This document shows, one piece after another, positions 5,140 to 33,207 of a stretch of DNA of 33,382 nucleotides (its first letter is position 1; each line of letters starts with the position of its first letter). The DNA is from Bacillus sp. 522_BSPC (GTDB lineage: Bacteria; Bacillota; Bacilli; Bacillales; Cytobacillaceae), in contig NZ_JVDT01000035.1 of the NCBI RefSeq assembly GCF_001076885.1, positions 1-33,382 of the forward strand, given 5' to 3'. The notes beneath the pieces were generated by a model. That model had not been told where the DNA came from and ran no database searches. It worked only from the letters and a program-made list of their open reading frames with translations. The position numbers and the translations under genes were made by a program.

Positions 5140-5194
5140 ATTAAGGTGAATATGTACTAATGAAACAAATGAATCTCCATTCGATTACAATTGA

Positions 5195-5208
5195 TGAAAT
5201 CGCTATCA
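5195..5208 (+). promoter_or_regulatory. Perfect-consensus cre site abutting the araB ribosome binding site
   Basis: TGAAATCGCTATCA fits the CcpA consensus TGWNANCGNTNWCA at every defined position. It ends at the first base of the AAGGAGGG ribosome binding site (5208-5215). It is far downstream of the promoter, so CcpA would act as a roadblock to elongation. Confidence 0.75.
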
Positions 5209-5220
5209 AGGAGGGAATAT

Positions 5221-6834: not shown

Positions 6835-6851
6835 GGAGATGAAGATTTAAC

Positions 6852-7547: not shown

Positions 7548-7593
7548 AATAACTTAAACTACTAAACTAATAAATGGAAAAGAGGGAAATAGA

Positions 7594-9295: not shown

Positions 9296-9511
9296 TGTAA
9301 CACCTCCGAAATCATCTTAGTATATATATACGCTTTTGGCTTTCCATTAGTTTCATTTATTTGTATAGATATACTTTTCCGTCTATTGGAGACATGATTC
9401 CCCCAAACTAGCCCATGCTGTAAATACACCCAAGGAATGCAGGAGATCCCTCCCATCCTGTCAAATTATAACTGGACAATCTAAGTATGATTGATCTTTA
9501 GTAACTTCTTA

Positions 9512-9793
9512 TTAGCTTATTACTTTTAGAAGATGATGGATGTCTTCTGTTGAATTTGCGTAAAAATCGGCGTGATTATTGGATCTTATCGTGAAATAAA
9601 CATTATGCAATTTCCCAGCGTAGCCGTAAGTTAATAGATTTGCGCATTGATGAGGATTTAGCTGTATTTGGATTGTAATCGCATTTGAATGATAATGCCC
9701 TTTGGAATCAAAGCCTGTCTCCTGAATGGAATTTACTTGTGCATTTTTATCAAAACTGTCGATGGCGGAAAACGTTTGATTATTGGTATACAT
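9512..9793 (-). CDS. Hypothetical 93-residue soluble protein
   Basis: The frame begins MYTNNQTFSAIDSF and has AAGAAGGGAAGA about ten bases upstream, a reasonable ribosome binding site. There is no signal peptide or membrane segment. The central part (AITIQIQLNPHQCANLL) looks like a beta strand and helix, and the C-terminal third is rich in His, Asn and Asp (RSNNHADFYANSTEDIHHLL). I do not recognise the family. It is a single-gene unit divergent from the EamA transporter. Coding is likely but not proven. Confidence 0.6.
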   Translation of the reverse strand: MYTNNQTFSAIDSFDKNAQVNSIQETGFDSKGHYHSNAITIQIQLNPHQCANLLTYGYAGKLHNVYFTIRSNNHADFYANSTEDIHHLLKVIS

Positions 9794-9922
9794 TTCGTTT
9801 TATCTTCCCTTCTTTCTTTTATAGCTTTATCTTACTCTAGTTGTATGTAAAACGCTTAACATTGTTTACTATTTCACATATTTTTCATAATCTCCATACA
9901 AAGGAATGGAAAAAGAACCCCT

Positions 9923-9951
9923 TTGACAACTAGCATAGTTGTTTTTATAAT
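9923..9951 (+). promoter_or_regulatory. Consensus sigma-A promoter of the EamA transporter gene
   Basis: TTGACA (9923-9928) and TATAAT (9946-9951) are both perfect hexamers at the optimal 17-base spacing. The start point should be near 9958, leaving a leader of about 124 bases before the start codon. Confidence 0.85.
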
Positions 9952-9984
9952 AAAGGACGAAATGAATAATAAAACCTTATTTTT

Positions 9985-10058
9985 AGGACGTGGATTTTTC
10001 TAGAGGAAACTCTATTTTCGCCACACAATTGTCTGCAGACCGTTGTGTGGCTATTTTA
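9985..10058 (+). ncRNA. Structured leader: candidate transcription attenuator or riboswitch
   Basis: The leader holds a small hairpin TAGAG-GAAA-CTCTA (10001-10014). A stronger one follows: GCCACACAA (10020-10028) with TTGTGTGGC (10043-10051), then UAUUUUA. The second looks like an intrinsic terminator placed before the gene. GTGG at 9990-9993 could instead pair with CCAC at 10021-10024, enclosing the GAAA hairpin and breaking the terminator stem, giving two exclusive folds. GGAC (9986-9989) could also pair with GTCT in the terminator loop (10031-10034). I cannot assign a known class. Regulation is inference. Confidence 0.45.
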
Positions 10059-19024: not shown

Positions 19025-19406
19025 TAATAAATCCCCCTCTAGCAAGTATGTAATTATTACAAGATTCAATATTCTAAATTAATATTCAATTATCCTTTTT
19101 ATTTTTTTAAAATAGTACTTTTATATCAGAAAATTTTCTGTTTTTAAAATTTTCTCTTTCGATTACCTATAAACATTTCAACTTCCTTACTAGATTGATT
19201 GTTTTCCATTCATTTTCTTAGAAACTATTCTTAAATAAGTTCATTCACTTCATAAATTAGACTATTTCTTTTCTAACGGGTAAACTTATTTTGTGTCTCA
19301 AACTATATGAAAATATTAATGTGAAGAGGAGTTACTATAGTGAAAAAAGAGCTTCTTTAAAAAAATTTATCAAAAAACCAAGAATATTCCTAAATAGCCA
19401 ACAAGA
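19025..19406. other. AT-rich intergenic region upstream of the protease
   Basis: This stretch between the mannosidase operon and the protease has no convincing gene. It holds a perfect 14-base palindrome, CAGAAAATTTTCTG (19127-19140), about 100 bases upstream of the protease start, and several A/T runs. No clear promoter could be fixed. A six-codon frame (19340-19360) with a GAGGAG site is too short to call. Confidence 0.5.
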
Positions 19407-19444: not shown

Positions 19445-22069
19445 CTATTTGGCGCTATATTCAATTTGAAGTGTCATATAGTCATAAGGCTTTATCAAGG
19501 ATTCTCTATTAATTTCCTCTTCTAAAGCATTCACTATTGTAGCATTTGCTATCAAACTATCATCCACCTTAACTTCATTCGAAGTCGGATTTGCTAATCG
19601 AATAACAAATGCATTTGCACGTCGATAGGATGGATAAATTGCAGATACAATTAAATGATCGGGTAATTCAAGTAATGAAAACACAGATGATAATGGCTCT
19701 ACCTTTCTTTGTGGCCATATTTTATTATCTAATCGATTAATAAATACATTTAGTAATTGTTTTTGATAGGATATAGACGGATTTAATCTTTCATAAGATA
19801 TTTTTGCTGTCTCCATTTCATCAAATGGTTGCCCTGCTACACGAATTGCAAATGTGAATTGGTTAATCCCGAGCTCTTGAGCCAATGGAGTCGGCATCAT
19901 AATATGCCCTTCGTTAGTCGTATCCCCAGATGCTCGCCCTGGTCTCCAAGCTAAGTTTGGCTTACCTAGTTGCCCAGTGGTTGCCATGAGTGTAATAAAT
20001 AATTTATTTTTGACTCGCTCATATTCTTTTAGACCATCTGCATAAACCGTAATATGATATGCTTCATCCTCAACCGTTACACTTTTATCAAAAATCTCTA
20101 AGTTTACCGGTTTTTCAACATATTTCGTATGCCAGTCTTCTGGAATAAAATCAGGTTGATTTCTAACAAAACCATTTTGGATTTGAGCAATTGACTTCTC
20201 ATCCTTATTTCCCACATCAATTTGTAATCTTAATCGATGTGATAATACTTGGTTGTTCACACTTATTTTCCCCTCAATTAAATCCTCATTCCCCTTTTTG
20301 AGAATTAATTCTAATTCAAAACTTAATTCCCCAGTTTGAGGATTGGAGGATAGCCTATCTTCTAAATCATACGGAATCTCCATTACACCATAAAGCACCA
20401 TCGACTGTTTAGTTGAGTCTTCGAATGCCTTCGCTTCTTTATAGTAGAGTTCAATCTCTTTATCACCAGCTAACGGAGAGTAATCATAAGTATCGCCGTC
20501 ATTTGCTGCATCGACTAATTTAACAAAATCTTTAAATAATAAACCAGTAGTTGTTTCAAGTGTTAATTCGTTATTTTCATATACCAGCTTGTAAACATCA
20601 TTTTGAATTCGTGTCGTACTAACTTCCTGCTTCTCCTCTAACGCTCGATTAGTACTCTCTAAAAATTCAATCACCTTATACCCAAGCGCAGGTAATTCAA
20701 CGTTAATACATACATCTAATTCATAGTAAGAAGGTTCATCAAAATAATCAAACCCAGTTGCGACTAACTTCATGATATTTTTACGCTCTGGATAATAGAC
20801 TTCTTTAACAATTACTGCTTGCTGACTTTCTGTAAAAGTAATATTTTTACTACGGGTAACAATGTGAACCACTTTCTCCCCTATAAATGGTTTTGGATCT
20901 GTATTAAAAATTAAAACTTGATTTGGCTTTAAATCGAGCCTATCAGCAATTTTTTTCGCTATTAAATTCTCCAGTCCATCAGCTATTTCATTAGCCTCTT
21001 TAATACGATGAAAGATATCTTCCGCTACATTATCTGACACACAGCCCCCAATACTATCATGGGCTTGATTTTCAAGCACTTTTTTCCATAATCTTTGAAG
21101 AAGTCCGTTGCTAATTTCTATATTATTTTTTTTAGCAATAACCATTAATGGTTCGATTCTCCGTAATATCTTTTGCTCTAATTTAAAATTCTCTAGCTTC
21201 ATTTGCGTACGAACTGATCCTATTGAGCGATGTGCTCTGGAATAAACAGGTTCTCTCAACTCTCCTTGATACTTAGGTAAGTTCTCCTTCTTACGAATAG
21301 TATCAACATATGTTGGATAATCACTAATTACATTCTCATAGTTACTTACCTCGTTTAAAGCTTCCACCACTTTATCAAAGTCACGTACAATGTTTTTCTG
21401 ATCAATTCCTGAAGGGATTAAAATATCTTGATTATCTCCGTGTTCTTGAAGAAATGTAATGGATGGATCCAATTTTTCTTTAACGAATTCCTCAATATTT
21501 TCTTGCGCTTCTACCGTCATCAACCCTGTCATATAGCCAAAAGGGAAATTCATAGCATAAACAAAACGATCCCCTAATCCTTTCCAAACGAAATATGGTG
21601 ATTCTACCAACTTTTCAAAATTAATACCTCTCCAACACATAAAGTTATCTATTCCTACTTGATTTAGTAATGTAGGTATTTGGGCATTAAATCCAAATGT
21701 ATCAGGTAAATAACCAACCATCATTGGTTCACCATATTTTTTCATCGTATCATTAATCCCAATAATCAAATTTCTAAGAATAGATTCGGCATCTACTAAT
21801 AGTGCATCGGTTTGAGTAAACCATGGACCAACAAATAATCTCTTTTCTTCGACAAGTTTTTGAATAACAGGTAACTTATCAGGATTTAATTCAATATACT
21901 CATCAACAATAGAAGATTGGCCATCCAAGCAAAAGTTGACATTTGGATTGCTTTCTAGTTCATCTAATACTTCTGTAAAAACTTGATCACTTAAGACTTT
22001 GGCATCTTCTGTTGTAAAATACCATTCTCTATCCCAATGCGTATGTTGTACAATATATGATTTTGTCAT
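19445..22069 (-). CDS. mngB: GH38 alpha-mannosidase, probable mannosylglycerate hydrolase
   Basis: The 874-residue cytoplasmic enzyme has the GH38 layout: a catalytic domain (about 1-260) opening with QHTHWDREWY, where H9/H11 and D13 are in the zinc site. The WFTQTD sequence includes D88, the likely nucleophile. A helical middle domain contains ENQAHDSIGGCVSDN (about 345, another zinc-site His) and a long beta-rich C-terminal part follows. Length and N-terminal pattern agree closely with E. coli MngB (877 residues), which splits 2-O-(6-phospho-alpha-mannosyl)-D-glycerate into mannose 6-phosphate and glycerate. It is the last gene of a PTS operon, so its substrate is very likely phosphorylated on import. 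Other phosphorylated alpha-mannosides are possible. There is no signal peptide. GGGAGAAC precedes the ATG. Confidence 0.88.
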   Translation of the reverse strand: MTKSYIVQHTHWDREWYFTTEDAKVLSDQVFTEVLDELESNPNVNFCLDGQSSIVDEYIELNPDKLPVIQKLVEEKRLFVGPWFTQTDALLVDAESILRNLIIGINDTMKKYGEPMMVGYLPDTFGFNAQIPTLLNQVGIDNFMCWRGINFEKLVESPYFVWKGLGDRFVYAMNFPFGYMTGLMTVEAQENIEEFVKEKLDPSITFLQEHGDNQDILIPSGIDQKNIVRDFDKVVEALNEVSNYENVISDYPTYVDTIRKKENLPKYQGELREPVYSRAHRSIGSVRTQMKLENFKLEQKILRRIEPLMVIAKKNNIEISNGLLQRLWKKVLENQAHDSIGGCVSDNVAEDIFHRIKEANEIADGLENLIAKKIADRLDLKPNQVLIFNTDPKPFIGEKVVHIVTRSKNITFTESQQAVIVKEVYYPERKNIMKLVATGFDYFDEPSYYELDVCINVELPALGYKVIEFLESTNRALEEKQEVSTTRIQNDVYKLVYENNELTLETTTGLLFKDFVKLVDAANDGDTYDYSPLAGDKEIELYYKEAKAFEDSTKQSMVLYGVMEIPYDLEDRLSSNPQTGELSFELELILKKGNEDLIEGKISVNNQVLSHRLRLQIDVGNKDEKSIAQIQNGFVRNQPDFIPEDWHTKYVEKPVNLEIFDKSVTVEDEAYHITVYADGLKEYERVKNKLFITLMATTGQLGKPNLAWRPGRASGDTTNEGHIMMPTPLAQELGINQFTFAIRVAGQPFDEMETAKISYERLNPSISYQKQLLNVFINRLDNKIWPQRKVEPLSSVFSLLELPDHLIVSAIYPSYRRANAFVIRLANPTSNEVKVDDSLIANATIVNALEEEINRESLIKPYDYMTLQIEYSAK

Positions 22070-22097
22070 AAAAGTTCTCCCACACTCTCATCTATAA

Positions 22098-23141
22098 TTA
22101 GATATCCGCTTGATGTTGTTGTTCTTTCTTTCTAAACTTCATCAGCTTAAGTCCATTCACCATCAACGCAGTAATTAAACCACCTACTAAAATAGCAATA
22201 CAGTATAAGAAAATATTAGATGTAAAAGGAATAGCCATAAAGGTTGCAAGCATTGTTTCTTGTGTGACTCCAAAAGCACCATTTATCGCACAGCCTGCCG
22301 CAGTACCTACGATAATACTTGGTATCACACGTAATGGATCAGCAACCGCAAATGGAATCGTTCCCTCAGTTATACCGACAATTCCCATAATTATAGCTGT
22401 TTTCCCGTTATCGCGTTCACTCTCTGAATATAGTTTTTTATTTAGTAATGTAGCTAAAAACATACCGAATGGTGGAATAGCAATTGCGAGTAGCATTGCA
22501 GTACTAGCTGCATATCCACCTGAGGTAAAGGAGGCTACACCAAATGCATAAGCAATTTTGTTTACTGGTCCTCCCATATCAAATGCCATCATTGCACCAA
22601 GAATAGCCGCTAATATTGCAGCGTTTGCACCAGACATACCATTTAACCACTCTGTAAGTGCTTCCGTTAATGCGGTAATAGGTGTGCCTAGGATATACCA
22701 AAAAATAAGTCCAACAACTGCCGTTGCTACAAAAGGAATAATAATTAGCGATTTTAAGCTCATAATCTGCGCAGGAACTGGGATTTTTTTTAAATAATTC
22801 ACTAGATAACCTACTGCAAGTCCTGCAATCATACCGCCAATGAACCCAGTACCCATTTCATTTGCAATCATCCCACAAATAAAAGCAGGAGCTAAGCCGG
22901 GACGATCAGCAATTGCATATGCAATGTAACCAGCAATCATTGGTACAATAAATTGTAGTCCAGTCTGACCAATCATACGAATAACGCCCCAGAATGTATC
23001 AGTTTGATCCCATACATTTGTACCTCCAAAAATTACCGCAATGGAAGTGAGTAATCCGGCTGCTGTTACAAGGGGGATCATATAAGATACGCCACTTTGA
23101 AAATGATTTAGCATTTCTTTACCCAATTTTTTCACGTTCAT
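22098..23141 (-). CDS. PTS fructose-family EIIC permease
   Basis: The 347 residues hold about nine hydrophobic helices and the Fru-family EIIC signatures: HFQSGVSYMIPLVTAAGLL near the N-terminus, AYAIADRPGLAPAFICGMIANE near residue 75, GAMMAFDMGGPVNKIAYAFG near residue 190, and the conserved GITEGTIPFAVADPLRVIPS near residue 255. It forms the membrane channel and receives phosphate from the adjacent EIIB. In E. coli the mannosylglycerate carrier MngA is one A-B-C fusion; here the three parts are separate genes. It starts 35 bases after the EIIB stop with GAGGAGG upstream, and 28 bases separate it from the mannosidase. Confidence 0.93.
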   Translation of the reverse strand: MNVKKLGKEMLNHFQSGVSYMIPLVTAAGLLTSIAVIFGGTNVWDQTDTFWGVIRMIGQTGLQFIVPMIAGYIAYAIADRPGLAPAFICGMIANEMGTGFIGGMIAGLAVGYLVNYLKKIPVPAQIMSLKSLIIIPFVATAVVGLIFWYILGTPITALTEALTEWLNGMSGANAAILAAILGAMMAFDMGGPVNKIAYAFGVASFTSGGYAASTAMLLAIAIPPFGMFLATLLNKKLYSESERDNGKTAIIMGIVGITEGTIPFAVADPLRVIPSIIVGTAAGCAINGAFGVTQETMLATFMAIPFTSNIFLYCIAILVGGLITALMVNGLKLMKFRKKEQQHQADI

Positions 23142-23176
23142 TTTTCCGTCCTCCTCGTTGATTTATAAAACTCCTT

Positions 23177-23491
23177 TTATTTTTGACCAAGTTCTATCGC
23201 TTTTTGTATAGTCGTTGCTCCATCTTTCACAACTTCAGAAGTACCTACTTCAATAATTTTTTTGCCATTAAAACGTTCCCGTTCAGCTACATTAGTGTCT
23301 ACCGCAAAAATAACTGCATCCGCTTCTTCAATTTCTTGCGATTTTAGTTTATTTTCAATTCCCATTGCACCCTGAGTTTCTACTTTAATAGCTACGCCAT
23401 TCTTTTTCGCATATTTTTCAAGGTTTGCTTTCGCCATATACGTATGAGCAATTCCTGCAATACAAGCTGTTACAGCCACTAATTTAGTCAT
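23177..23491 (-). CDS. PTS fructose-family EIIB
   Basis: The 104 residues are a free Fru-type EIIB domain. The phosphocysteine is C10 in the loop TACIAGIAHTYMAK, followed by KVETQGAMG, both diagnostic of the fructose family. It takes phosphate from EIIA and passes it to the sugar in the EIIC channel. TAGGAGG stands a few bases before the ATG. The gene lies 28 bases after EIIA, in one operon. Confidence 0.94.
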   Translation of the reverse strand: MTKLVAVTACIAGIAHTYMAKANLEKYAKKNGVAIKVETQGAMGIENKLKSQEIEEADAVIFAVDTNVAERERFNGKKIIEVGTSEVVKDGATTIQKAIELGQK

Positions 23492-23519
23492 TTTTTTTCC
23501 TCCTAAAATTCACTAAAGT

Positions 23520-23978
23520 TTATTTTTCTAAAAATGATAAAACATCATACAAAGCATCCACACTGTCCGCTTGTTTAATACTTTCCACAAAATCGTCATC
23601 CATCAATTTACCCGACAAATCTGCTAATAGCCTTAAGTGTGTGTCTCCTTTATCTTGATCCTTAATTGCTAACAAAAACACTATACTTACTGGTGCCCCA
23701 TCAAGCGAATCCCATTCTACTGGTTGCTGTAGGCGTGCAACAGCAACAGTAGATTCTTCAACTGCGCCACTTTTCCCATGTGGAATAGCTAAGTTATTAC
23801 CAATTCCAGTAGTCATTTGTTGCTCTCGATCAATTACATCTTTTATAAAGATTTCTAGATTTGAGACATAGTTATTGTTAAATAATAGATTCGCTAATTT
23901 CTCAATCACTTCTTCTTTACTGTTAGCTACTAAATTTAACGTAATATTATCTTTATGAATCTTCTGTTTTGTCGTCAT
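23520..23978 (-). CDS. PTS fructose-family EIIA
   Basis: The 152 residues form a PTS_EIIA type-2 domain. The phosphoacceptor is H67 in GIGNNLAIPHGKSGAVEES, and the HLRLLADLSGKLMDDDF sequence near the C-terminus is also typical. It receives phosphate from HPr. Its ATG overlaps the stop of the regulator gene by four bases (ATGA), with GGAGAT inside the regulator's last codons, so the two are translationally coupled. Confidence 0.94.
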   Translation of the reverse strand: MTTKQKIHKDNITLNLVANSKEEVIEKLANLLFNNNYVSNLEIFIKDVIDREQQMTTGIGNNLAIPHGKSGAVEESTVAVARLQQPVEWDSLDGAPVSIVFLLAIKDQDKGDTHLRLLADLSGKLMDDDFVESIKQADSVDALYDVLSFLEK

Positions 23979-25894
23979 AAGCTTATCTCCTTCAAAAGTG
24001 ATTGAATGTCATTTTCATCCCGAGCTGCCACTAATCGCTTCATAACAGAATAATTAGAGACCAGTTCATTAAAATAGGCATAAACCTCATTAATGGAATC
24101 TTTAACTGTTCGATTAAGCGCAAAGAAAAATACAATGTGTACTTTTTCATCTCCCCAAGCAATACCTGTTGAATTGATATAAATTGATATACTTGGCTGC
24201 ACATTATAATCTACTTCTGCATGTGGCATTGCAAAGATCCCCATAGCCGTTGATGACAAATTTTCACGCTTTAATGCACTTTCAAATACGCCATCCCTTG
24301 CATACCCTAGCTGAATGAGCTGGTTACTAATTGTTTGCAATACCGACTCCATTGTTTCCACATCTTCTGAGAAGAAAAGCAACTCTTGTTTTATTAACTC
24401 ACGAAAAGCAAGATAAGAACGTTCAAATTTATTTCCTACTTGTTCTTCTACTAGCTTAATGTCATGTTCTGTCATTAACGGACTTACGACAACAACAGGA
24501 ACAGGACTATTTTCAATTGGGATTGTGCTAATAATTAGTTCTTCCGATAGATCTGTATGTTGTAACTCTCTAAGTGACAGTACCTTTGTTATCATCAGCT
24601 TTTTCGAAAATGTCTTCTTTAAGCGTTGTTCCAATAGCTTTGATGTTCCATATCCACTACTACAGACGAGCACTACTTTCTTGACGATTGCTGGTTCTCG
24701 ATCAAAGAAAGCCTGAATATGCAATGTAATATACGCTATTTCGTCATCAGTGAGATGAATTTTGAATACCTTTTCTAATTCTCCAGTTAATTCAACGGCA
24801 ACTTCAAAAGAACGTTGGAAAGTTGTACGGATTTTATCTGTATATGGATTGTAGATATTTAATCCTAGCTGCAATCGTTTTACTGCAGCATTTAAATGCA
24901 CAATAAGATTCTTAATTAATTCTTGATCAGGATGATACGTATCTAAAGTTTGTATAATCAAGCTCCTTAATTGTGCGCTAAGATCTAATACATCAACATT
25001 AGCGAAAGCTTTATTATTTAAGGTGTTTTTCTCAATTGCTGAAATATGGATATTAATATACTCTTGTTCATATTTTGGAATGTTAATATGAAAAACTTCT
25101 TCTAATGCGTTTATCAGTAATAATGAACTTGATAGTAACATTTCTTCCTCTTCAATTGGCTTATCAATATAAAAGTCTTGCTTAATTCGCTCAATAGCTA
25201 TAACTAAATGAATTGCTAGAGATTGATATTCATAATCTGTGACATTCAAACCCGATTCCTCAATAAAATTATTTAGAATATCCGCAACCTTATCTAAAGT
25301 GTTGAAATTGATAAAATCCTTGGTTCCAGCCGACATAATAATATTGAGTTTTAGGCTTTGTTTCTTTTTTTTAGTTGCCCTTACACCACCCCAATAGTAA
25401 TTAATAACATTAGACATTAATTTTCTTCTATCATTTTCATTTGCTTTCAGCTTCAACCCATTACGGTTACTGATAATATCCAAATTATTTTTGGCAAATG
25501 TCTTTCTCACCTCACGCATGGTATGTTCCATTGTTGTTCTACTTACATGAAGCTCATCAGCTAAATCTTGAATCTTAACATATCCATCGCTATTCAATAG
25601 TTGAGAATAAACAAACATCTCTCTGTCTTCGATCGAATCCACAGGTTTCATATTCAAATGATTCAACAATTGTTTGATTTCTTCTTTTTCCCCAATTATT
25701 GTGACACCTTCACGTGGCTTAATAGATAAGGATAAATTTGTTTGAATCAATATATCCTGAACGTCTTCAAGATATTTGCGCACTGTTTTTGTTGAAACAT
25801 TCATCATCGCTGCAATTTCATTGTGAGTCGTAATTCCCTTGTCTAGAATAAATTGAATGATTTTCCTATATTTATCCTCGTAAGCCTGCTTCAT
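23975..25894 (-). CDS. PRD-containing PTS-controlled transcriptional activator (MtlR/LicR/ManR type)
   Basis: The 639 residues show the full five-part plan of this regulator class. There are two N-terminal helix-turn-helix segments (about 5-60 and 85-140). PRD1 carries H229 and H283, and PRD2 carries H333 and H392. An EIIB-like domain has C411 in VCSSGYGTSKLLEQ, and a C-terminal EIIA-like domain has H558 in AMPHAEVDYN. All phosphorylation residues are present, so it should be activated by HPr through the PRDs when preferred sugars are absent and inhibited through its EIIB/EIIA parts when its substrate is missing. It is the first gene of the operon it probably controls. GAGGTG precedes the ATG at good spacing. 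Confidence 0.92.
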   Translation of the reverse strand: MKQAYEDKYRKIIQFILDKGITTHNEIAAMMNVSTKTVRKYLEDVQDILIQTNLSLSIKPREGVTIIGEKEEIKQLLNHLNMKPVDSIEDREMFVYSQLLNSDGYVKIQDLADELHVSRTTMEHTMREVRKTFAKNNLDIISNRNGLKLKANENDRRKLMSNVINYYWGGVRATKKKKQSLKLNIIMSAGTKDFINFNTLDKVADILNNFIEESGLNVTDYEYQSLAIHLVIAIERIKQDFYIDKPIEEEEMLLSSSLLLINALEEVFHINIPKYEQEYINIHISAIEKNTLNNKAFANVDVLDLSAQLRSLIIQTLDTYHPDQELIKNLIVHLNAAVKRLQLGLNIYNPYTDKIRTTFQRSFEVAVELTGELEKVFKIHLTDDEIAYITLHIQAFFDREPAIVKKVVLVCSSGYGTSKLLEQRLKKTFSKKLMITKVLSLRELQHTDLSEELIISTIPIENSPVPVVVVSPLMTEHDIKLVEEQVGNKFERSYLAFRELIKQELLFFSEDVETMESVLQTISNQLIQLGYARDGVFESALKRENLSSTAMGIFAMPHAEVDYNVQPSISIYINSTGIAWGDEKVHIVFFFALNRTVKDSINEVYAYFNELVSNYSVMKRLVAARDENDIQSLLKEISL

Positions 25895-26218: not shown

Positions 26219-26246
26219 CAAAAAAAAGAAACCTAAGTGGTTCCTT
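26219..26246 (-). terminator. Intrinsic terminator of the ABC/lyase operon
   Basis: On the minus strand AAGGAACC (26246-26239), loop ACTTA, and GGTTTCTT (26233-26226) pair with one G-U, followed by seven U in all. It lies about 100 bases past the last permease stop, with a family B repeat in between. The stretch 26011-26218 holds nothing else I can support. Confidence 0.72.
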
Positions 26247-26312
26247 TTGTTTTAACGAATCCAGTAAAATGCATAACCATCCCCCCACATCTCGACTCCT
26301 CGATACCAGCGT

Positions 26313-26340
26313 GGGACAAGGAACCTGACCCCATGTCCCA
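26313..26340 (-). repeat. Family B hairpin repeat after the last ABC permease gene
   Basis: Arms GGGACA (26313-26318) and TGTCCC (26334-26339) enclose AGGAACCTGACCCCA, the inverted form of the family core. It begins eight bases past the permease stop codon when read on the minus strand. Confidence 0.8.
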
Positions 26341-26347
26341 ACCAACC

Positions 26348-27166
26348 TCACTTCAACCCCGTCAGCGTAATTCCCTTTATAATATGGCGTTGGAAGATCA
26401 AGAAGACGATGATGAGTGGAACGACGGCTATCGTTGCGCCTGCCATGACGATTTCCCAATAGGTTTGGTTTTCGCCGGAGAAAAAGGCAAGTCCGACAGG
26501 CAGTGTTCGCATTTCTTCTGTTTCGATGACGATAAGGGGCCATAGATAGGCATTCCAGTTTCCTAGGAAAGTGAAAATACAAAGTGCTGATAAGGCTGGA
26601 TAAACCTGTGGGATGGCGATTTGAAAGAAAATCTTGAATTCATTTAATCCATCGATTCTTGCTGCATCAAGCAAATCATCTGGGATAGATTCCATAAACT
26701 GCTTCATCAGAAAAATGCCAAAAGCTGATATGACGCCTGGAAACATAATTCCCCAGTAAGTATCGACCCAGCCTAAATCGGTAGACATGATATACCAAGG
26801 AATAATTAGCATTTCGGTCGGAATCATAAGAGAGCTTAGGATGAATAAAAAGATAATATTTTTCCCAACAAACGAAAATTTAGCGATAACATAGCCAACA
26901 AGAGTGTCAAATAAAGCAACACTTAAGGTAGTAATAATTGCAACGATAAAACTATTAAAAAACCATTTATTAAATAGCGTATCTACCATGATTTTTCGAT
27001 AATTGTCTAAAGTAGGATGGTCAGCAAGCAGCTTTAGTCCATATACTTCAGATGGCGGTTTAAAGGATGTTGATACCATCCAAATAAATGGAAACAACAT
27101 AAAAATTGCACCCACGGTTAGTAGAATATAGACAATCGATTTTTTAAAGTACCTTCTTTTTTTCAA
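26348..27166 (-). CDS. CUT1-type sugar ABC transporter permease (MalG-like)
   Basis: The 272 residues have six hydrophobic helices and the ABC permease loop DAARIDGLNEFKIFFQIAIP (about 165-185), which docks on the ATPase. The ending IKGITLTGLK (VxGxTxGAxK-like) is typical of MalG-type partners in the carbohydrate uptake 1 family. It pairs with the preceding permease and the lipoprotein binding protein. It starts at a TTG with GGGGGTG upstream, 20 bases after the previous gene. No ATPase gene is present in the operon; in Bacilli a shared MsmX-type ATPase often serves such systems. Confidence 0.93.
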   Translation of the reverse strand: MKKRRYFKKSIVYILLTVGAIFMLFPFIWMVSTSFKPPSEVYGLKLLADHPTLDNYRKIMVDTLFNKWFFNSFIVAIITTLSVALFDTLVGYVIAKFSFVGKNIIFLFILSSLMIPTEMLIIPWYIMSTDLGWVDTYWGIMFPGVISAFGIFLMKQFMESIPDDLLDAARIDGLNEFKIFFQIAIPQVYPALSALCIFTFLGNWNAYLWPLIVIETEEMRTLPVGLAFFSGENQTYWEIVMAGATIAVVPLIIVFLIFQRHIIKGITLTGLK

Positions 27167-27186
27167 GTCTTCACCCCCACACCTTT

Positions 27187-28104
27187 CTAGTATTCAAATT
27201 TCTTCGTTAATACCTTCATTTGAATAATGGTTATGATTAAAATAATAATAAATAACAGAACGGTTGCCGCAGAAGCTAGGCCCATATCAAAGTGCTGGAA
27301 TGCTAATTCGTAAATATAAAGCACAACCGATATCGTTGAATTCAGTGGTCCACCCTGTGTCATATTTTGGACCTGTGTAAAGGTTTGTAAGAAGCTAATA
27401 CTTCCAATGACAGCGGAAAATACGATTGTCGGATTTAATAAGGGCAAAGTAATATGAATAAATTTATTCCAGCTATTCGCCCCATCTATTTCTGCTGCTT
27501 CATAGAACATTTTCGGAATATTTTCAAGGCCAGCTAAGAAGATAATCATCTGGAAGCCTAAGCCTTGCCATATCATTGTTAAGATAATAATATAAATCGC
27601 CTGATCCGGTGATTTTAGAAAAAGCTGGGCCTCAAAGCCCCATTTCATCAGGATATCATTCACAATCCCGTTGTTCATTAGAATCCATTTGAAAACCCAG
27701 CTTACGGCAACAATGCTTGTCACATAAGGAATAAAGTATATCGCTCGGAACACACCGACAAATTTATTGATTCTTTGCAGCAGTAAAGCTACCCCTATCC
27801 CGCACAGCAACTGCCCAATGACACCAAATACAACATAGATGAACGTATTTACTAGTGCTTTTCGAAAAATTTCATCTTTAAAAAGAGTCATATAATTATC
27901 CATTCCAACAAATGGTTTTTCCTCCGAAAGAATATCCCATTCCCGGAATCCTATATTAAAGGTATAAAGTGTTGGCAAAAATCGAATCGAAATAAAAAAG
28001 AGAAGAGGAATAAGCAAGCAAGTATACACAAATATATATTTTTGCTGTTTTAACGTGAATCTAGCAGTCTTTTTTTTGACAATAGAATCGTTCTTACTAG
28101 TCAT
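27187..28104 (-). CDS. CUT1-type sugar ABC transporter permease (MalF/UgpA-like)
   Basis: The 305 residues show six membrane segments, the first at about residues 27-48 after a basic N-terminus. The EAA-type loop is EAAEIDGANSWNKFIHITLP near residue 205. It is the MalF-side partner of the next permease. AAGGAGGGGG precedes the ATG. A large hairpin lies between it and the binding protein gene, which should lower permease expression relative to the binding protein. Confidence 0.93.
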   Translation of the reverse strand: MTSKNDSIVKKKTARFTLKQQKYIFVYTCLLIPLLFFISIRFLPTLYTFNIGFREWDILSEEKPFVGMDNYMTLFKDEIFRKALVNTFIYVVFGVIGQLLCGIGVALLLQRINKFVGVFRAIYFIPYVTSIVAVSWVFKWILMNNGIVNDILMKWGFEAQLFLKSPDQAIYIIILTMIWQGLGFQMIIFLAGLENIPKMFYEAAEIDGANSWNKFIHITLPLLNPTIVFSAVIGSISFLQTFTQVQNMTQGGPLNSTISVVLYIYELAFQHFDMGLASAATVLLFIIILIITIIQMKVLTKKFEY

Positions 28105-28123
28105 GGAGCCCCCTCCTTTCTGA

Positions 28124-28154
28124 ATAAAGAAAGACGAAATTCGCCTTTCTTTAT
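28124..28154 (-). other. Long hairpin between binding-protein and permease genes
   Basis: Arms of 15 bases, ATAAAGAAAGACGAA (28124-28138) and TTCGCCTTTCTTTAT (28140-28154), pair throughout in RNA (one G-U) with almost no loop. It starts ten bases past the binding-protein stop. Such hairpins often protect the upstream mRNA from 3' exonucleases or partly terminate, raising binding protein over permease. Confidence 0.8.
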
Positions 28155-28164
28155 CCCATCAGAT

Positions 28165-29448
28165 TTACTTTTTACTCCAATAGTCATCGTAAAGCTTCTG
28201 TGATTTAGCCGCAAATTCATTATAAGCATCCTCAATAGAAACCCCATTTAGCAATACTTCATTCACCGCATCAATAACATACTGTCTCTGCGCGGTTTCG
28301 TCGACATAGAATTGTGCATTCGCATAAGGAAGCTGTTCAATAAATGGACCATATAGCGGATCATTTACGTATTTATCTTGTGTTGCTACCGCTTCTTTTG
28401 CTGGCAGTTCCCCTACCTCATCAATCCAGCGTTCCATCACTTCATCACTTGTTAAAAACGCTAAGAATTTTTTCGATGCTTCTAATTTTTCCCCTTCTAC
28501 TTTTGCAGTAATGCCATTTGCCCAGAATGATGATTGGGTTGCTTTCTCTTTATAGGATGGCAGTGGCGCAACTCCATAATTTAAATCAGGTGCATCTGTA
28601 GCCAATGTTCCCAGACGGAAGGAGCCATCAATATTCATCGCTGCATTGCCTGTTTTAAATGCTGTTACATCATCTGTATAAAATCCGCTTTCCCCAACCT
28701 TATGCTTGGATCCAAATTCCACTAAATACGTAAATGCTTCTAACCCAGCAGGAGTATCATCCCAAAGAATTTGCTTCCGATCCTCACTTAATCCTTGACC
28801 ACCAGCCTGATAAACTAAGGCATCATAAAACCAGTTGTTCAACTGAGCTCCTATTTCGTATGCCATCCCTTCTGTTACTAACTTTCCATTTTCTCTGACT
28901 GTCAGCTTTTTCGCATAATCTACTAATTCATCCCATGTTTCTGGTGGACTGTTCGAATCTAAGCCTGCTTTTTCGAAAAGATCTTTGTTATAAAAAAGCG
29001 CCAGTGTACGAACAGCCGTTGGAATTGCCCAATACTTATCATCCAATTTCGCTGCATTTACTAAGGAGAAGTATTCACTTTCAATTTGATCTACCGGGAA
29101 TGTATCTTCCGGAAGAGGCTGTAAATAACCTGAATCAATGTATTTCGGAAGCCAGCCATAATATAAATTAATGACATCTGGACCTCTTCCAGCTGGAACT
29201 AATGTAGCCACTTTTTCATTGTATTGCTCATAAGGGAAGGTTGTTTGCTTTACTTTGATACCTGGATTTGCTTCTTCAAATTCTTTAATAAGCTCATCCA
29301 TTAAATCAACTTTAGCCTTATAGGCATATTGCCAGTATTCAATGGTTACTGTATCCCCTTCTTCTCCCCCAGATTCCTTTCCTTTTGAACAGCCAACAAC
29401 TACCATTAACACTATGAGAAAAAGAAAAACACCTAACATTTTTTTCAA
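28165..29448 (-). CDS. Extracellular sugar-binding lipoprotein of an ABC transporter (SBP family 1)
   Basis: The 427 residues begin with a lipoprotein signal peptide (MKKMLGVFLFLIVLMVVVGC) whose lipobox cysteine is C20. The mature protein should thus be attached to the outer face of the membrane. The rest is a type 1 solute-binding fold: TIEYWQYAY near residue 35, EFEEANPGIKVKQTTFPYEQY near 57-77, and GNAAMNIDGSFRLG near 265, all typical of CUT1 oligosaccharide binders. The start is a TTG after AGGAGGGG. It delivers the ligand to the two permeases encoded next. The ligand may be a sugar conjugate rather than a plain sugar, given the enzymes upstream. Confidence 0.92.
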   Translation of the reverse strand: MKKMLGVFLFLIVLMVVVGCSKGKESGGEEGDTVTIEYWQYAYKAKVDLMDELIKEFEEANPGIKVKQTTFPYEQYNEKVATLVPAGRGPDVINLYYGWLPKYIDSGYLQPLPEDTFPVDQIESEYFSLVNAAKLDDKYWAIPTAVRTLALFYNKDLFEKAGLDSNSPPETWDELVDYAKKLTVRENGKLVTEGMAYEIGAQLNNWFYDALVYQAGGQGLSEDRKQILWDDTPAGLEAFTYLVEFGSKHKVGESGFYTDDVTAFKTGNAAMNIDGSFRLGTLATDAPDLNYGVAPLPSYKEKATQSSFWANGITAKVEGEKLEASKKFLAFLTSDEVMERWIDEVGELPAKEAVATQDKYVNDPLYGPFIEQLPYANAQFYVDETAQRQYVIDAVNEVLLNGVSIEDAYNEFAAKSQKLYDDYWSKK

Positions 29449-29471
29449 TAGAACCCCTCCTATTAAACAAG

Positions 29472-30953
29472 TTATTTATTATTACTTAACACGTTGTAGC
29501 TGTTATGGTGTAGTAGCTGTTTATAAGAAGTAAATTTCTGTCTATATGTTTCTACTTCTTTAGAAAAAGCCTCTACATGTTGAGTGGAGCGTATCCGCTG
29601 CCTCTCTGTTTCTTTCGGATTAGGACCTCCTAGTACGGAGCGAACAAGGACAAATTGATAGGGATCAATCGCATTTTTATAATGTGCTTCTGTAAAAACA
29701 AGTGGTGTACCCAATATTTCCTTGGCAATTTGTTTAACCAATTCAGCAGAGCCATCATTTATTTTTTTCCCAGAGCTAGATAATTGTTGGACTAAAACAC
29801 TGGCAATTTGATGAGAATCACGGAAGGATAAATGGCATTCTCTTACAAGCACATCTGCTAATTCCGTGACGGTGGAAAAGCCTTCACAGCACCGGGTAAA
29901 GAGCTTATCTACATTCACCTCCATAGATTTAAGAATTTCTGTCAGTAATTCGATGATTTGATAAGAATGAGAAAAGCCATTAATAAGAATAGGTTGGATG
30001 TCATCCCCGATATCGACAATGTCCCCAAAAGGTGCATTATGTGGCATCATAAATACGGCGTTTATTTCTCCAATTGTTCTACTAATAAGGGATTTGGTAT
30101 GTTCTAAGGATGATGGATTTCGTTTTTGAGGCATGATGCTTGATGTTTGCACTAAGCTTTCATCTAGCCTGATTGCATCTACTTCATTTGTCGTAAAAAA
30201 CATAAGATCATGTGTAAAGCGGGACAAGGTGCTTAAGGCAATTTTGATTACACTAGCTATTTCAAGCATATAATCTGCGGCACTAATCGAATCATAGGAA
30301 TTTTCCATCGCTTTATCAAAAGCTAATTGTGTTGCCATAAAAGGACGGTCAATTGGAAAGCCAGAAGTACCTAGAGCAGCAGCACCCATTGGCGACTGAT
30401 TTATTCTTTTTAAAAGAGAAAAGCCTCTCTCCAGATCTCTCTCTAAGCTACTATCTATGGCTAAAAGATAATGGGCCAAAGTAGTCGGCTGTGCTTGCTG
30501 ATTATGTGTATAGGCTGGCATAATCGTTCGTTCATGTTCTTTTGCAAGACCCAGCAATACCTTTTTTAATTCGATAAGCACGGTGAGAAAATGCAAAAGC
30601 TTTTCACGAGCTAACATCCTGTACATGGTAGCATCCATATCGTTTCGACTGAAGGCAATATGCATATTCCCTACAAGCTCTTCGCCGATTTCTTGTTTTA
30701 AATCTTCTTCTATCATAAAAAATAAGTCTTCAAAGATAGGATCATAATTCTTTCCATAGCCTTTCGCTAATATGCCTTGATTCGCTTTAATGATTTTTTC
30801 GGTATCTGCGATTTTTAAGATTTTTTGGCGGGCTAACATGGTAGCATGTGCGATATTAATTTCTAATAAGTAGGGAAGGAAATGTTGCTTGGTAAAATCG
30901 TAGGTAGGTTCTAGGATATGATTTACATATATATGTGATCTACTGTCTGGCAT
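29472..30953 (-). CDS. Argininosuccinate-lyase-like enzyme of the aspartase/fumarase superfamily
   Basis: The 493 residues carry the three active-site regions of argininosuccinate lyase relatives: SRNDMDAT (102-109), AYTHNQQAQP with H150 (147-156), and the mobile loop signature SSIMPQKRNP (271-280) with the catalytic serine. Enzymes of this fold remove a C-N or C-O linked group by beta-elimination, usually releasing fumarate. It differs from true ArgH: the usual N-terminal WGGRF motif is missing, GSSxMPQKKNPD has become TSSIMPQKRNPS, and it sits in an ABC uptake operon rather than with argG. A conjugate of succinate or a similar acid is the likely substrate, as known for EDDS-lyase-type relatives. 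Its ATG lies 14 bases inside the preceding amidohydrolase gene, with GGGAGTG upstream, so the two are tightly coupled. Confidence 0.85.
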   Translation of the reverse strand: MPDSRSHIYVNHILEPTYDFTKQHFLPYLLEINIAHATMLARQKILKIADTEKIIKANQGILAKGYGKNYDPIFEDLFFMIEEDLKQEIGEELVGNMHIAFSRNDMDATMYRMLAREKLLHFLTVLIELKKVLLGLAKEHERTIMPAYTHNQQAQPTTLAHYLLAIDSSLERDLERGFSLLKRINQSPMGAAALGTSGFPIDRPFMATQLAFDKAMENSYDSISAADYMLEIASVIKIALSTLSRFTHDLMFFTTNEVDAIRLDESLVQTSSIMPQKRNPSSLEHTKSLISRTIGEINAVFMMPHNAPFGDIVDIGDDIQPILINGFSHSYQIIELLTEILKSMEVNVDKLFTRCCEGFSTVTELADVLVRECHLSFRDSHQIASVLVQQLSSSGKKINDGSAELVKQIAKEILGTPLVFTEAHYKNAIDPYQFVLVRSVLGGPNPKETERQRIRSTQHVEAFSKEVETYRQKFTSYKQLLHHNSYNVLSNNK

Positions 30954-31887
30954 TCAGCTGCTTCACTCCCATCTCTAAATTGAGTAAACGGCGTGCATTG
31001 TTCCCAAAGATATTCTCCATATCATCCTCTCTCATATTAATTTCTCTGCATACTCTTACCTGATCTTGTAAATATCGATAGGAAAAGCCTCTCGGAAAGC
31101 CATTGGAATCTGTGCCAAATATAATTCTTTCTGGTCCAATCAATTCAAATGTTTTTCGAAAGAGCGTCTCTAAATCTAATGGATATGGCATCCATCTTAC
31201 CCACTGATTAGAGCCAGATGTATCGACATAAACATTTGGGCAGCTCCAGCATAAATGTAACAGCTCTTTGAAGTAGCCTGCACCAAAATGAGGAATAATG
31301 ATTGGAAGATCTGGGAATTCTCTTGCTACTTGAAAAATCGCAAGGGGAGACATATTTTGATGTTCCACTATTCCACCAGCTCTGCCTAACAATCCAAAAT
31401 GAATTAAAACTGGCAGTTGGTTATCTGATAAATATTGCCAAACTGGCATTAAGGCTTCATCATGCAACGGTCTATTCACAAGGGGCCCAAACATTTTATA
31501 GCCTTTTAATCCTAATTGTTCAATCGCTCTTTTTAGCTCGGGCAGAGCATCGCTACTTTCGATAGAATGATGAGCAAACCCGATAAATCGGTCTGAATGC
31601 TCGCTAATTTTCGCAGCCATATCATCATTGTCTTCTGCCGTAAGAAAGTTCATGACTTCTACACCATATGTATCGAGCTCTGCTAGCCATCGATCCATGA
31701 GCGGGATTGCTTTTTGCTCGTCTGTTTCCTCTGAAGGATGGGGAAAATCCCAAGTTAACCTCATTCTTTCTGATCTTTCTGCATTATAGGCATCCCCCGT
31801 TTTGGATCTTTTAATAAAACTACTGCCTTTTTTCGCAGGTAAATGCCCATGAATATCAACCACTTTAAAAGCATTTTGAAAGAGCAT
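30940..31887 (-). CDS. Amidohydrolase-2 family metal-dependent hydrolase or decarboxylase
   Basis: The 315 residues form a TIM-barrel amidohydrolase of the Amidohydro_2/ACMSD-like type. Metal-ligand positions are visible: VDIHGH (H13, H15) on strand 1, a histidine in PVLIHFGL near residue 175, another in IIIPHFGAGYF near 205, and the aspartate of IIFGTDSNGFPRG near 265. Family members hydrolyse lactones or amides, or decarboxylate carboxylic acids. The reaction here is unknown. AAGGGAG precedes the ATG, 26 bases after the ROK gene. The 14-base overlap with the lyase implies that both enzymes act in one pathway, probably on the compound imported by the ABC system. Confidence 0.86.
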   Translation of the reverse strand: MLFQNAFKVVDIHGHLPAKKGSSFIKRSKTGDAYNAERSERMRLTWDFPHPSEETDEQKAIPLMDRWLAELDTYGVEVMNFLTAEDNDDMAAKISEHSDRFIGFAHHSIESSDALPELKRAIEQLGLKGYKMFGPLVNRPLHDEALMPVWQYLSDNQLPVLIHFGLLGRAGGIVEHQNMSPLAIFQVAREFPDLPIIIPHFGAGYFKELLHLCWSCPNVYVDTSGSNQWVRWMPYPLDLETLFRKTFELIGPERIIFGTDSNGFPRGFSYRYLQDQVRVCREINMREDDMENIFGNNARRLLNLEMGVKQLNARQ

Positions 31888-31913
31888 GTATATCTCCCTT
31901 CTAATCTATTTTT

Positions 31914-33095
31914 TCAACTAGACAATAATGCATGTTTTTTCATACAAAGAACGGTTGCGCCAAGCAAGGAAGCATGCGGCAGCTTTGTTAGCATTACCGT
32001 TGTTCTACTTTGTTCAGGCAGATAATGCTCGATTCTCGCTTGTAGTTTTGGCAAAAACCAATGGCCTGATTTGGAAATCCCTCCCCCTAATACGATGCAT
32101 TCAGGATTAAGCAATGCAGCAACATTTATTAAAGATACAGCAAGATGATCCAAAGCCTCGTTAATGATTTTAGCCGCTAGTGCTTCTCCTTCGATTGCCT
32201 TTTGAAATATTTTCTCCGCGTTCTCCTTCTTTGTAGCAGAACCGCTTTGATACTGTTTCACAATAGACGGACCACCTACCTGATTTTCGAGAAAACCATA
32301 GCCCTCAAACACCGATTCAAATCCTTGGCTTGCCTGATCTTTATTAGTAATCATGTAGCCTATTTCTCCAGCTGCATATTGACCACCGCGAAATAATTCT
32401 CCATTAATTACAATTCCGCAGCCTACTCCTGTTCCAATCGTTATTAAAACTACATGGGATTTATCTTTAGCAGCACCTTTCCAGCACTCTCCCAACACCG
32501 CCATATTCACATCATTTTCAATGTAAATCGGGAAAGGAAAATGCTCTGCCATCTCCCTTTTCAATGGATAGTGGAGCCACCCTAAGCTTGGTGCTTCCAT
32601 CACGATTCCCTGATTCGAATCAGTAATTCCCGGCGCACCAATCGCCAAAGCCAACACTTTCGTATGACATATATTTTTGTCTTCTAGCATTGCATTTACT
32701 TCATTAACTAGTAAAAGAATAAAATCTTTCTTCAATCCATCCTGTGTATCGATTTTTCGATGAAGAATCAAGCCACCATCCAAATCCATAATCGCTAGTT
32801 CTGTCGAGGTTCCGCCAATATCAATGCCAATGGTATATTTAAATTGTTTATCAAAGACTAAATGAACCGGTTTTCGTCCCCCTCTCTTTGCTGCCTTTTT
32901 GCTTTCTTTTTCAATTATCCAGCCTTCTTCCACCAGTTCATCTACCAATGCCGATATAGTCGGTTTACTTAGCTTCAACCTTTTTGCCAAACTTGCTCTG
33001 GAATAAAGATTATCTCCTTCGATAATTTCTTGTAGCACTTTTCTTTTATTAATTGTCTTCAAGTAGTTGGGAGTTCCTGATTGCAATATACTCAT
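31914..33095 (-). CDS. ROK-family transcriptional regulator (XylR/NagC type)
   Basis: The 393 residues have an N-terminal winged helix (about 15-65, YSRASLAKRLKLSKPTISALVDELVEEGWI) and a ROK sugar-kinase-like domain from about residue 80. The ATP-site loop is kept as GIDIGGTSTELAIMD, and IGTGVGCGIVINGELFRGG and CIVLGGGIS are also typical. The usual CxCGxxGCxE zinc cluster is absent and the ExGH motif reads GEIGYM, so metal and sugar binding probably differ from the norm. I start it at 33095, five bases after GGAGG; the ATG at 33107 overlaps that site. It is the first gene of the operon and very likely its repressor. The effector is unknown. Confidence 0.88.
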   Translation of the reverse strand: MSILQSGTPNYLKTINKRKVLQEIIEGDNLYSRASLAKRLKLSKPTISALVDELVEEGWIIEKESKKAAKRGGRKPVHLVFDKQFKYTIGIDIGGTSTELAIMDLDGGLILHRKIDTQDGLKKDFILLLVNEVNAMLEDKNICHTKVLALAIGAPGITDSNQGIVMEAPSLGWLHYPLKREMAEHFPFPIYIENDVNMAVLGECWKGAAKDKSHVVLITIGTGVGCGIVINGELFRGGQYAAGEIGYMITNKDQASQGFESVFEGYGFLENQVGGPSIVKQYQSGSATKKENAEKIFQKAIEGEALAAKIINEALDHLAVSLINVAALLNPECIVLGGGISKSGHWFLPKLQARIEHYLPEQSRTTVMLTKLPHASLLGATVLCMKKHALLSS

Positions 33096-33207
33096 CCATT
33101 CCTCCATTCATGGCAGTTAGTAAACCTTCCTTACTTCTTGAATAGTCTATGACTCGCTAGAATGTAATATGTTTGTAAATTTTCCGAGGGACAAATAGTG
33201 GTTTATT

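Follow-up and report, generated by a model that had tools for sequence, protein, structure and literature searches.

An ArgH-superfamily lyase outside the argininosuccinate lyase group in a Bacillus sugar-uptake operon, with amino-sugar genes around its relatives

What would a sugar importer do with a relative of argininosuccinate lyase? The question is raised by an operon of Bacillus sp. 522_BSPC (contig NZ_JVDT01000035.1; our window is the whole 33,382-nucleotide stretch analysed). ORF calling and domain search placed six genes on the minus strand at 26219..33095, with the same order and domains as the co-directional operon described in an earlier note on this DNA. The first gene (31914..33095) encodes a ROK-family repressor with a winged HTH and a ROK domain, NagC/Mlc-like but below the cut-offs for those families; its reading frame spans 31914-33107, and the ATG at 33095, behind GGAGG and identical with the boundary given in the earlier note, is the likelier start, in a stretch conserved across two aligned sister species. 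The second and third encode an Amidohydro_2 metal hydrolase (30940..31887) and a lyase with Lyase_1 and ASL_C2 domains (29472..30953), whose start overlaps the end of the amidohydrolase gene by 14 bases (30940..30953). They are followed by an SBP_bac_1 lipoprotein, the solute-binding protein of a CUT1 importer (28165..29448), and, by domain and profile searches, two CUT1 permeases of UgpA/MalF type (27187..28104) and UgpE/MalG type (26348..27166). Intergenic distances in gene order are 26, -14, 23, 60 and 20 bases, as the earlier note had it (gaps of 20-60 bases and one enzyme overlap), and each of the six shows purifying selection (dN/dS 0.011-0.153 vs one sister species, G009). A site scan placed a terminator-like stem-loop with a T run 3' of the last permease (26224..26248, minus strand); because such sites occur in the region at near their chance number (7 found vs 5.4 expected), this stem, read 26248-26224, counts by position alone. 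Promoter-like sites in the region were fewer in the scan than chance would give.

The operon contains no glycosidase, kinase, isomerase or ATPase, as previously claimed, although kinases and NagB are present in some relatives' clusters. It also has neither PIG-L nor deaminase, leaving the amidohydrolase as its only gene of the kinase, deaminase or N-deacylase types sought around the lyase. The absent ATPase, at first considered an oddity, is probably ordinary: the genome encodes UgpC-type ATPases elsewhere, which share up to 65% identity with an ATPase encoded in a relative's cluster. Also elsewhere in the genome are a single glucosamine-6-P isomerase/6-phosphogluconolactonase family member and three short PIG-L genes, one adjoining bshA; a search run without a positive control found no long PIG-L there.

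We then asked what the lyase is. It passes the curated argH equivalog score (TIGR00838; 331.6 vs 279.5 bits), hence the name "argininosuccinate lyase". Public records give that name to genes of its clade. From tree, residues and genome context together, we conclude that the window lyase is not ArgH and belongs to a separate clade of the ArgH superfamily. In a 37-row tree the lyase clade and ArgH each formed one group (support 100/98 and 100/99), and an AU test rejected holding the window lyase with the 10 ArgH rows (p 3.5e-92). The substrate loop has changed: a Tyr present in 10/10 ArgH rows is replaced in 102/102 clade rows, by Asp in 101; a Gln, likewise in 10/10 ArgH rows, is Glu, Gly or Ala in 102/102; and, across the 102 clade rows, the position of the ArgH Lys is taken either by Gln or by a residue that is mostly hydrophobic, according to where a gap is placed. 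We take these three to be the arginine-side residues of ArgH. Fumarate-side motifs are kept (SRND, TH, SSIMPQKxNP), with S271, S272, K277, N279, T149, H150 and S102-D105 at 99-100% in the 102 clade rows. Nor is the gene beside argG or the genome's only ArgH-type gene, for a separate argG-argH pair lies at G000:C180 (argG recognised from sequence). True ArgH identity is thus rejected, and the earlier description of a catabolic uptake operon with an ArgH-like but non-ArgH member of a fumarate-releasing superfamily is supported.

The best solved-structure match of the window lyase is PDB 6g3d (202 bits), an entry titled argininosuccinate lyase that we take to be the EDDS lyase of Chelativorans. 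This protein branches on the ArgH side (98/92), on a long branch that makes its placement unsure, and differs at the clade residues H285, N306, D311 and Q320; in this tree the window lyase groups with neither ArgH nor EDDS lyase. The best NCBIfam match is PRK06705/NF005218, also "argininosuccinate lyase", at 384.9 bits and far below its cut-off of 883.

Gene neighborhoods indicate that the lyase clade is widespread and travels with amino-sugar genes. We counted neighbors by six-frame HMM searches, ORF calling being weak on GC-rich loci (17/129 lyases missed). The 110 loci comprise 102 placed in the clade by tree and 8 outside the tree counted by default (L067, L134, L141, L151 and L160, with over-long frames; L128, L129 and L130, with no extracted lyase of 380 residues), after 5 near-duplicates were dropped. 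They were chosen by similarity to the window, not at random (the best 80 of at least 546 relatives), with many from metagenome assemblies and some of short length; neighbor families were modelled from the same neighborhoods, and detection favors in-clade loci. The relatives' lyases are mostly 32-52% identical to that of the window and may differ from it in substrate.

ABC genes occur in 78/110 loci (no ABC match in the other 32) and a ROK gene in 60/110, showing a recurrent association of the lyase with ABC and ROK genes; to this extent the gene set is conserved. A long PIG-L deacetylase is the commonest enzyme partner (49/110), and the amidohydrolase is found in 16/110; an earlier BLAST count over 102 loci gave 47 and 12. 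Within 9 kb of the lyase we found an N-deacylase-type gene in 68/110 loci, a sugar kinase in 36/110 and a glucosamine-6-P-deaminase-type gene in 8/110, two of these weak (L126, 41 bits, probably 6-phosphogluconolactonase; L125, 65 bits, best model GlmS). Genes of these three kinds near the lyase are what we looked for in a catabolic amino-sugar cluster. Of the 63 ABC loci flanked on each side by 5 kb of sequence, 13 had no recognised hydrolase, including five of the eight deaminase loci. Fourteen out-of-clade loci gave four ATPase matches but no ABC, kinase, deaminase or hydrolase match by BLAST, and one weak amidohydrolase match (36 bits) by HMM.

Profile scores in relatives vary in firmness. 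One NagB passes TIGR00502 (281.6 vs 236.9). A SIS protein has NagB-II as best model (313 vs a cut-off of 430), and the sole NCBIfam match of a BadF kinase is GlcNAc kinase (93 vs 370). The best models of two scanned PfkB kinases were ribokinase or ribose-1-phosphate kinase, and that of a scanned ROK kinase was fructokinase. A short Deinococcus PIG-L ranks MshB first, then Mca, BshB2 and BshB1, without reaching any of their cut-offs; for the long PIG-L of G099, Mca at 31 bits is the single match; and a PIG-L with a NEW3 domain occurs in relatives' loci.

That lyase and amidohydrolase form a conserved core, as had been proposed, is rejected on their pairing in 16/110 loci; within the genus the amidohydrolase is absent in one species and survives as a fragment in a second, and 18/25 Bacillota genomes with an amidohydrolase match had no lyase match (398 genomes searched; the overlap of seven was counted by hand from searches with differing E limits). 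Without the lyase it lies beside a GH125-like protein in some genomes. The earlier note asked whether ABC genes always adjoin the pair; where the pair occurs, a CUT1 binding protein is present in 16/16 loci. No locus has both a long PIG-L and the amidohydrolase (p 4e-5, 110 loci); an underpowered phylogenetic pair test of 14 pairs, with none changing the same way and a median of 2 opposite, was not significant. Given this mutual exclusion, the amidohydrolase seems to be a deacylase that substitutes for PIG-L and not a fixed partner of the lyase, and we propose that it is a cytosolic N-deacylase or amidase. H13, H15, H163, H200 and D260, presumably its metal-site residues, are invariant in 9 sequences.

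What, then, might the operon break down? The earlier note suggested a sugar or opine-like compound carrying an amino-dicarboxylate. The sugar-dicarboxylate half was a good guess; the opine half finds no support among the neighbors, where PIG-L, NagB and NagK-type genes indicate amino sugars, and PIG-L as commonest enzyme partner points to N-acylglucosamine rather than an opine. According to the accessible part of a 2014 review (PMC4101496), every LmbE/PIG-L enzyme identified by then acts on an N-acetyl- or N-acylglucosamine core, but the PIG-L fold is not confined to such enzymes, since the structure matches of one PIG-L protein include a 4-oxalmesaconate hydratase (5cgz). A malyl conjugate can be opened by a fumarate-releasing lyase. 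We therefore consider it probable that the substrate belongs to a class of N-acyl amino sugars bearing a lyase-cleavable dicarboxylate, and quite possible, if short of probable, that it is N-acylglucosamine joined to malate, the backbone of bacillithiol. It is the gene neighborhoods of relatives that speak for the amino sugar; malate and bacillithiol we infer. The CUT1 importer, sharing a UgpC-type ATPase whose gene lies elsewhere in the genome, would take up the conjugate; the genes are seen, and the ligand and ATPase pairing are predicted. The amidohydrolase would strip the N-acyl group, the job of PIG-L in many relatives, and the lyase, by chemistry established for its superfamily, would beta-eliminate the malyl C-O bond to yield fumarate and glucosamine, acting as an N-(acyl)glucosaminyl-dicarboxylate (malate) lyase. 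Glucosamine would be phosphorylated and then deaminated by enzymes encoded elsewhere, of families seen in-cluster in some relatives, and the ROK protein would repress the operon until its sugar appears.

More tentatively, the whole clade might consist of glucosaminyl-malate lyases and supply the enzyme still missing from bacillithiol breakdown, with several phyla, presumably including bacteria that use glutathione, scavenging bacillithiol or its backbone, deacylating it by PIG-L in or outside the cell or by the amidohydrolase, and splitting it by beta-elimination. Bacillithiol is Cys-GlcN-malate according to the accessible part of one paper (PMC4360819), and the accessible part of a 2014 review has Bca cleaving bacillithiol conjugates and GlcN-malate "presumably" recycled (PMC4101496). 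In a literature search with most subscription journals outside its reach, we found no paper listed as describing this gene set or bacillithiol breakdown.

Other readings weigh differently against these data. Linkage of the dicarboxylate through N suits the lyase no less than linkage through O, and the substrate could be glucosamine or aminodeoxyfructose N-linked to aspartate or succinate (a Heyns or Amadori product of aspartate), with C-N cleavage as by ArgH and EDDS lyase, or else a malyl ether of an N-acyl hexosamine. ArgH-superfamily members generally cleave C-N bonds of N-substituted aspartates, the best structure match is EDDS lyase, and the kinase and SIS/NagB neighbors fit, as do the five of eight deaminase loci without a recognised deacylase; but PIG-L, in 49/110 loci, would be jobless on a plain Heyns or Amadori compound, and we regard such another amino-sugar conjugate as unlikely, if a real contender. 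The same structure match could suggest uptake and cleavage of aminopolycarboxylates of EDDS or aspergillomarasmine type. That is improbable, since EDDS lyase sits with ArgH, subject to its long branch, and differs at the four marker residues, and PIG-L, NagB and kinases would be left unexplained.

An aromatic-ring or lactone pathway, with a CMLE-like lyase and the Amidohydro_2 protein as decarboxylase, lactonase or hydratase, draws on the decarboxylases among that protein's PDB matches. It would also explain the swap with PIG-L if both folds have 4-oxalomesaconate hydratases: LigJ is one of Amidohydro_2 fold, and 5cgz is one of PIG-L fold. ROK, CUT1, sugar kinases, NagB and PIG-L with NEW3 are carbohydrate-type genes, and make this pathway quite improbable. 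Most improbable is a second argininosuccinate lyase serving the uptake and use of argininosuccinate or arginine-like compounds: it would account for the curated score and the two domains, against which stand the AU rejection, the loop Tyr and Gln changes, argGH elsewhere and the sugar-type neighbors.

Clade genes recorded as argininosuccinate lyase would have a different function, and a single class of substrates can be put forward for testing. Were the substrate GlcN-malate, the operon would bear on the fate of extracellular bacillithiol and of GlcN-malate released by Bca, and the ArgH superfamily would gain a member able to open sugar conjugates through beta-elimination, a reaction for which we know of no example in it.

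The window lyase shares with ArgH its superfamily, domains, catalytic motifs and a passed curated score, but differs in clade, substrate-loop residues and distance from argG. EDDS lyase resembles it as best structure match and as a fumarate-releasing non-ArgH lyase, yet lies outside its clade with other marker residues; PRK06705/NF005218 is its best NCBIfam match but far under cut-off. BshB, Bca, MshB and Mca are the top models, below cut-offs, for the short Deinococcus PIG-L of a lyase cluster, and act, in the accessible part of the 2014 review, on N-acylglucosamine substrates (PMC4101496), although they are biosynthetic or detoxifying. Importer and regulator families are those of CUT1 sugar operons with ROK proteins of NagC/Mlc type, but here the sugar would be freed by a lyase instead of a glycosidase.

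The lyase of interest lies in a single minus-strand operon of six genes, encoding a ROK regulator (31914-33095), an Amidohydro_2 protein (30940-31887), an ArgH-like lyase (29472-30953), an SBP_bac_1 lipoprotein (28165-29448) and two CUT1 permeases, one of UgpA/MalF type (permA, 27187-28104) and one of UgpE/MalG type (permE, 26348-27166). The lyase and Amidohydro_2 genes overlap by 14 bases, and a terminator-like stem lies 3' of the last gene. The six-gene operon described in an earlier note is thus real, and the same genes stand in identical order in a sister species, G009; the finding also reaches further than was stated there, since the lyase belongs to a distinct family that the same kinds of gene accompany in several phyla. 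All six genes are under purifying selection between the two species (dN/dS: permE 0.011, permA 0.024, binding protein 0.026, amidohydrolase 0.049, lyase 0.084, ROK 0.153). Two further species of the genus have a decaying operon: in G012 the amidohydrolase is reduced to a 102-residue frame, and in G008 no amidohydrolase was found and ROK gives short matches split over two frames. At the decaying loci (L034, 9445-9753; L035, about 9503-9999) the amidohydrolase is truncated or not found, lyase and transporter are retained, and ROK is broken in one of the two; the G012 lyase match contains one TAA, and its open frame is 485 residues long. Adjoining the window operon, minus-strand translations at 19445-25894 read as a GH38 alpha-mannosidase, PTS IIC and IIA and a PRD-type regulator, possibly for mannosylglycerate-like use. 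From translations only, 5191-9012 (plus strand) resembles araB-araD-araA, and 16658-19069 (minus strand) a big secreted M6 (immune-inhibitor-A type) metalloprotease.

The window lyase, as judged from its sequence, is not ArgH. It scores above the cut-off of the argH profile (331.6 vs 279.5 bits), and is therefore automatically annotated as argininosuccinate lyase. The 5.1-Mb genome has a second ArgH-like copy, 34% identical to it, which is likely the ArgH of this genome because it lies directly behind a gene reading as argG. The comparison with ArgH that the earlier note had called for separates the two: a maximum-likelihood tree of 37 rows resolves the window's clade (18 rows, support 100/98) and ArgH (10 rows, 100/99) as one group each, and placing the window lyase inside ArgH lowers the log-likelihood by 173 units (AU p 3.5e-92). 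The split is reproduced in a FastTree of 127 rows, 102 of which fall in the clade (support 98). The clade retains the SRND, TH and SSIMPQKxNP motifs, and differs in a loop that reads AYNKDLQEDKE in Thermus thermophilus ArgH vs GDIVDIGDDIQ in the window. Where all ten ArgH rows have the loop Tyr, 101 of 102 clade rows have Asp; the Gln, likewise present in all ten, is replaced by Glu (82), Gly (17) or Ala (3); and the Lys aligns with a mostly hydrophobic residue or Gln, the choice hanging on a gap. We take Tyr, Gln and Lys to hold the arginine half of the substrate; a literature search on this role found no paper. Other clade markers are H285, H305, N306 and Q269. L028 and L032, from the same bacterial family, form another ArgH-like group, whose long branch lies outside both ArgH and the clade.

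Loci were drawn from 101 relatives (29 having a match at 1e-60) and 398 Bacillota genomes (20 at 1e-70), own genome included in both, from the best 80 of at least 546 matches among named genomes, and from eight annotated plasmid regions. By record title, the clade rows from these loci include Bacillota, Acidobacteriota, Chloroflexota, Deinococcota, Pseudomonadota (alpha, gamma) and Acidimicrobiia, many rows being metagenome assemblies. Within 9 kb of the lyase, 110 non-duplicate loci carry ABC genes (78), ROK (60), a long PIG-L deacetylase (49), PfkB (26), an amidohydrolase (16), BadF (14), a NagB or SIS protein of deaminase type (8) or a creatininase (5); any amide-type hydrolase occurs in 68. 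BLAST found none of these families at 14 out-of-clade loci, except an ATPase in four. Importers are of two types, CUT1 (SBP_bac_1) or an SBP_bac_6 lipoprotein with fused permease and ATPase; some Acidobacteria and gammaproteobacteria have a sodium:solute symporter or TonB-type receptor instead (Pfam for L124 and L126, others by eye). Of 63 ABC loci (5 kb either side), 13 showed no recognised hydrolase, and these 13 include five of the eight deaminase loci (L050, L067, L147, L154, L180); a deacylase and a deaminase gene therefore rarely lie in one cluster among the 110. The acidobacterial locus L125 (11482-15501) holds lyase, GlmS-isomerase-like SIS protein, ROK and amino-acid permease. Two clade members from the window's genus (L039, L041) have no ROK, PIG-L or CUT1 matches and adjoin genes reading as a sulfonate-type ABC importer and flavin monooxygenase, with a TauD-like dioxygenase on the opposite strand (by eye); they may have a different substrate.

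The lyase-amidohydrolase pair, taken by the earlier note as the core of the system, was wrongly emphasized, as the amidohydrolase occurs at only those 16 loci. ABC genes do accompany the pair, with a CUT1 binding protein at 16 of 16, and are found at 78 of the 110 lyase loci. Amidohydrolase and long PIG-L never occur at one locus (both 0, PIG-L only 49, amidohydrolase only 16, neither 45; Fisher p 4e-5; for the 63 ABC loci flanked by 5 kb each way 0, 36, 11, 16; p 2e-5), these p-values being inflated by relatedness; a small phylogenetic pair test (14 pairs, not significant) gave none the same way and a median of 2 opposite. Amidohydrolase presence needs at least seven changes on the FastTree, and five presumed metal-site residues are invariant across nine sequences. 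Among the 398 Bacillota genomes 25 have the amidohydrolase, 20 the lyase and 7 both (odds ratio 10.8, p 7e-5); in two of the seven (G271, G290) it lies elsewhere and PIG-L occupies the lyase locus. In other genomes it stands alone, or it has CUT1 genes and a protein resembling GH125 as neighbours; the latter arrangement reads as another glycoside cluster, none such being known to us. We infer a movable N-deacylase of small glycosides. The GH125-like association was seen in other Bacillota at L231 (8920-11289), L238 (8811-10685), L240 (5768-7648) and L239 (2849-5950), and carbon-nitrogen hydrolases accompany the family at L238 and L241.

Several relatives carry amino-sugar signals. The NagB beside the lyase in G061 exceeds the glucosamine-6-phosphate deaminase cut-off (281.6 vs 236.9); a Roseomonas SIS protein has NagB-II as top model (313 vs cut-off 430) and lies behind a ROK-family kinase whose top model is fructokinase; and the BadF kinase of G068 has a single match, GlcNAc kinase (93 vs cut-off 370). 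Two PfkB kinases scanned resemble ribokinase or ribose-1-phosphate kinase, with no bearing on glucosamine. According to PMC4101496, all PIG-L enzymes known by 2014 use N-acetyl- or N-acylglucosamine. The PIG-L-fold hydratase 5cgz, found among structure matches here, is an exception. A small Deinococcus PIG-L matches MshB best, followed by Mca, BshB2 and BshB1, none of these scores reaching its cut-off, and the long PIG-L of G099 has a single weak match, Mca (31 bits). By eye, long PIG-Ls begin with a signal-peptide-like stretch in many Bacillota, Acidobacteria and gammaproteobacteria and lack one in the alphaproteobacterial sequences listed, so the acyl group may be removed either before uptake or after it.

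An N-acyl amino sugar replaces the opine-like substrate class of the earlier note, with glucosaminyl-malate the leading, directly testable candidate; we infer substrates and step order from the observed genes, families, clade and context. Counting against such a pathway, the window operon has no PIG-L, kinase or deaminase, 13 of the 63 ABC loci show no recognised hydrolase, and an N-linked conjugate would suit the lyase equally well. As for glucosaminyl-malate, the host probably makes bacillithiol, because its genome has bshA (576.7 bits vs cut-off 273.7). Alphaproteobacteria carrying the cluster use glutathione, and would be scavengers. Enzymes of this superfamily convert X-CH(COO-)-CH2-COO- to X-H and fumarate; if X is an N-acylglucosamine, the only natural match that we know well is bacillithiol's malyl glycoside. 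This chemistry and match, with the product of Bca, suggest a sequence in which the conjugate would be taken up, deacylated and split by beta-elimination into fumarate and glucosamine, the latter then being phosphorylated and deaminated: bacillithiol is Cys-GlcN-malate (PMC4360819), and its cleavage by Bca would give GlcN-malate, which in the words of PMC4101496 is "presumably" recycled.
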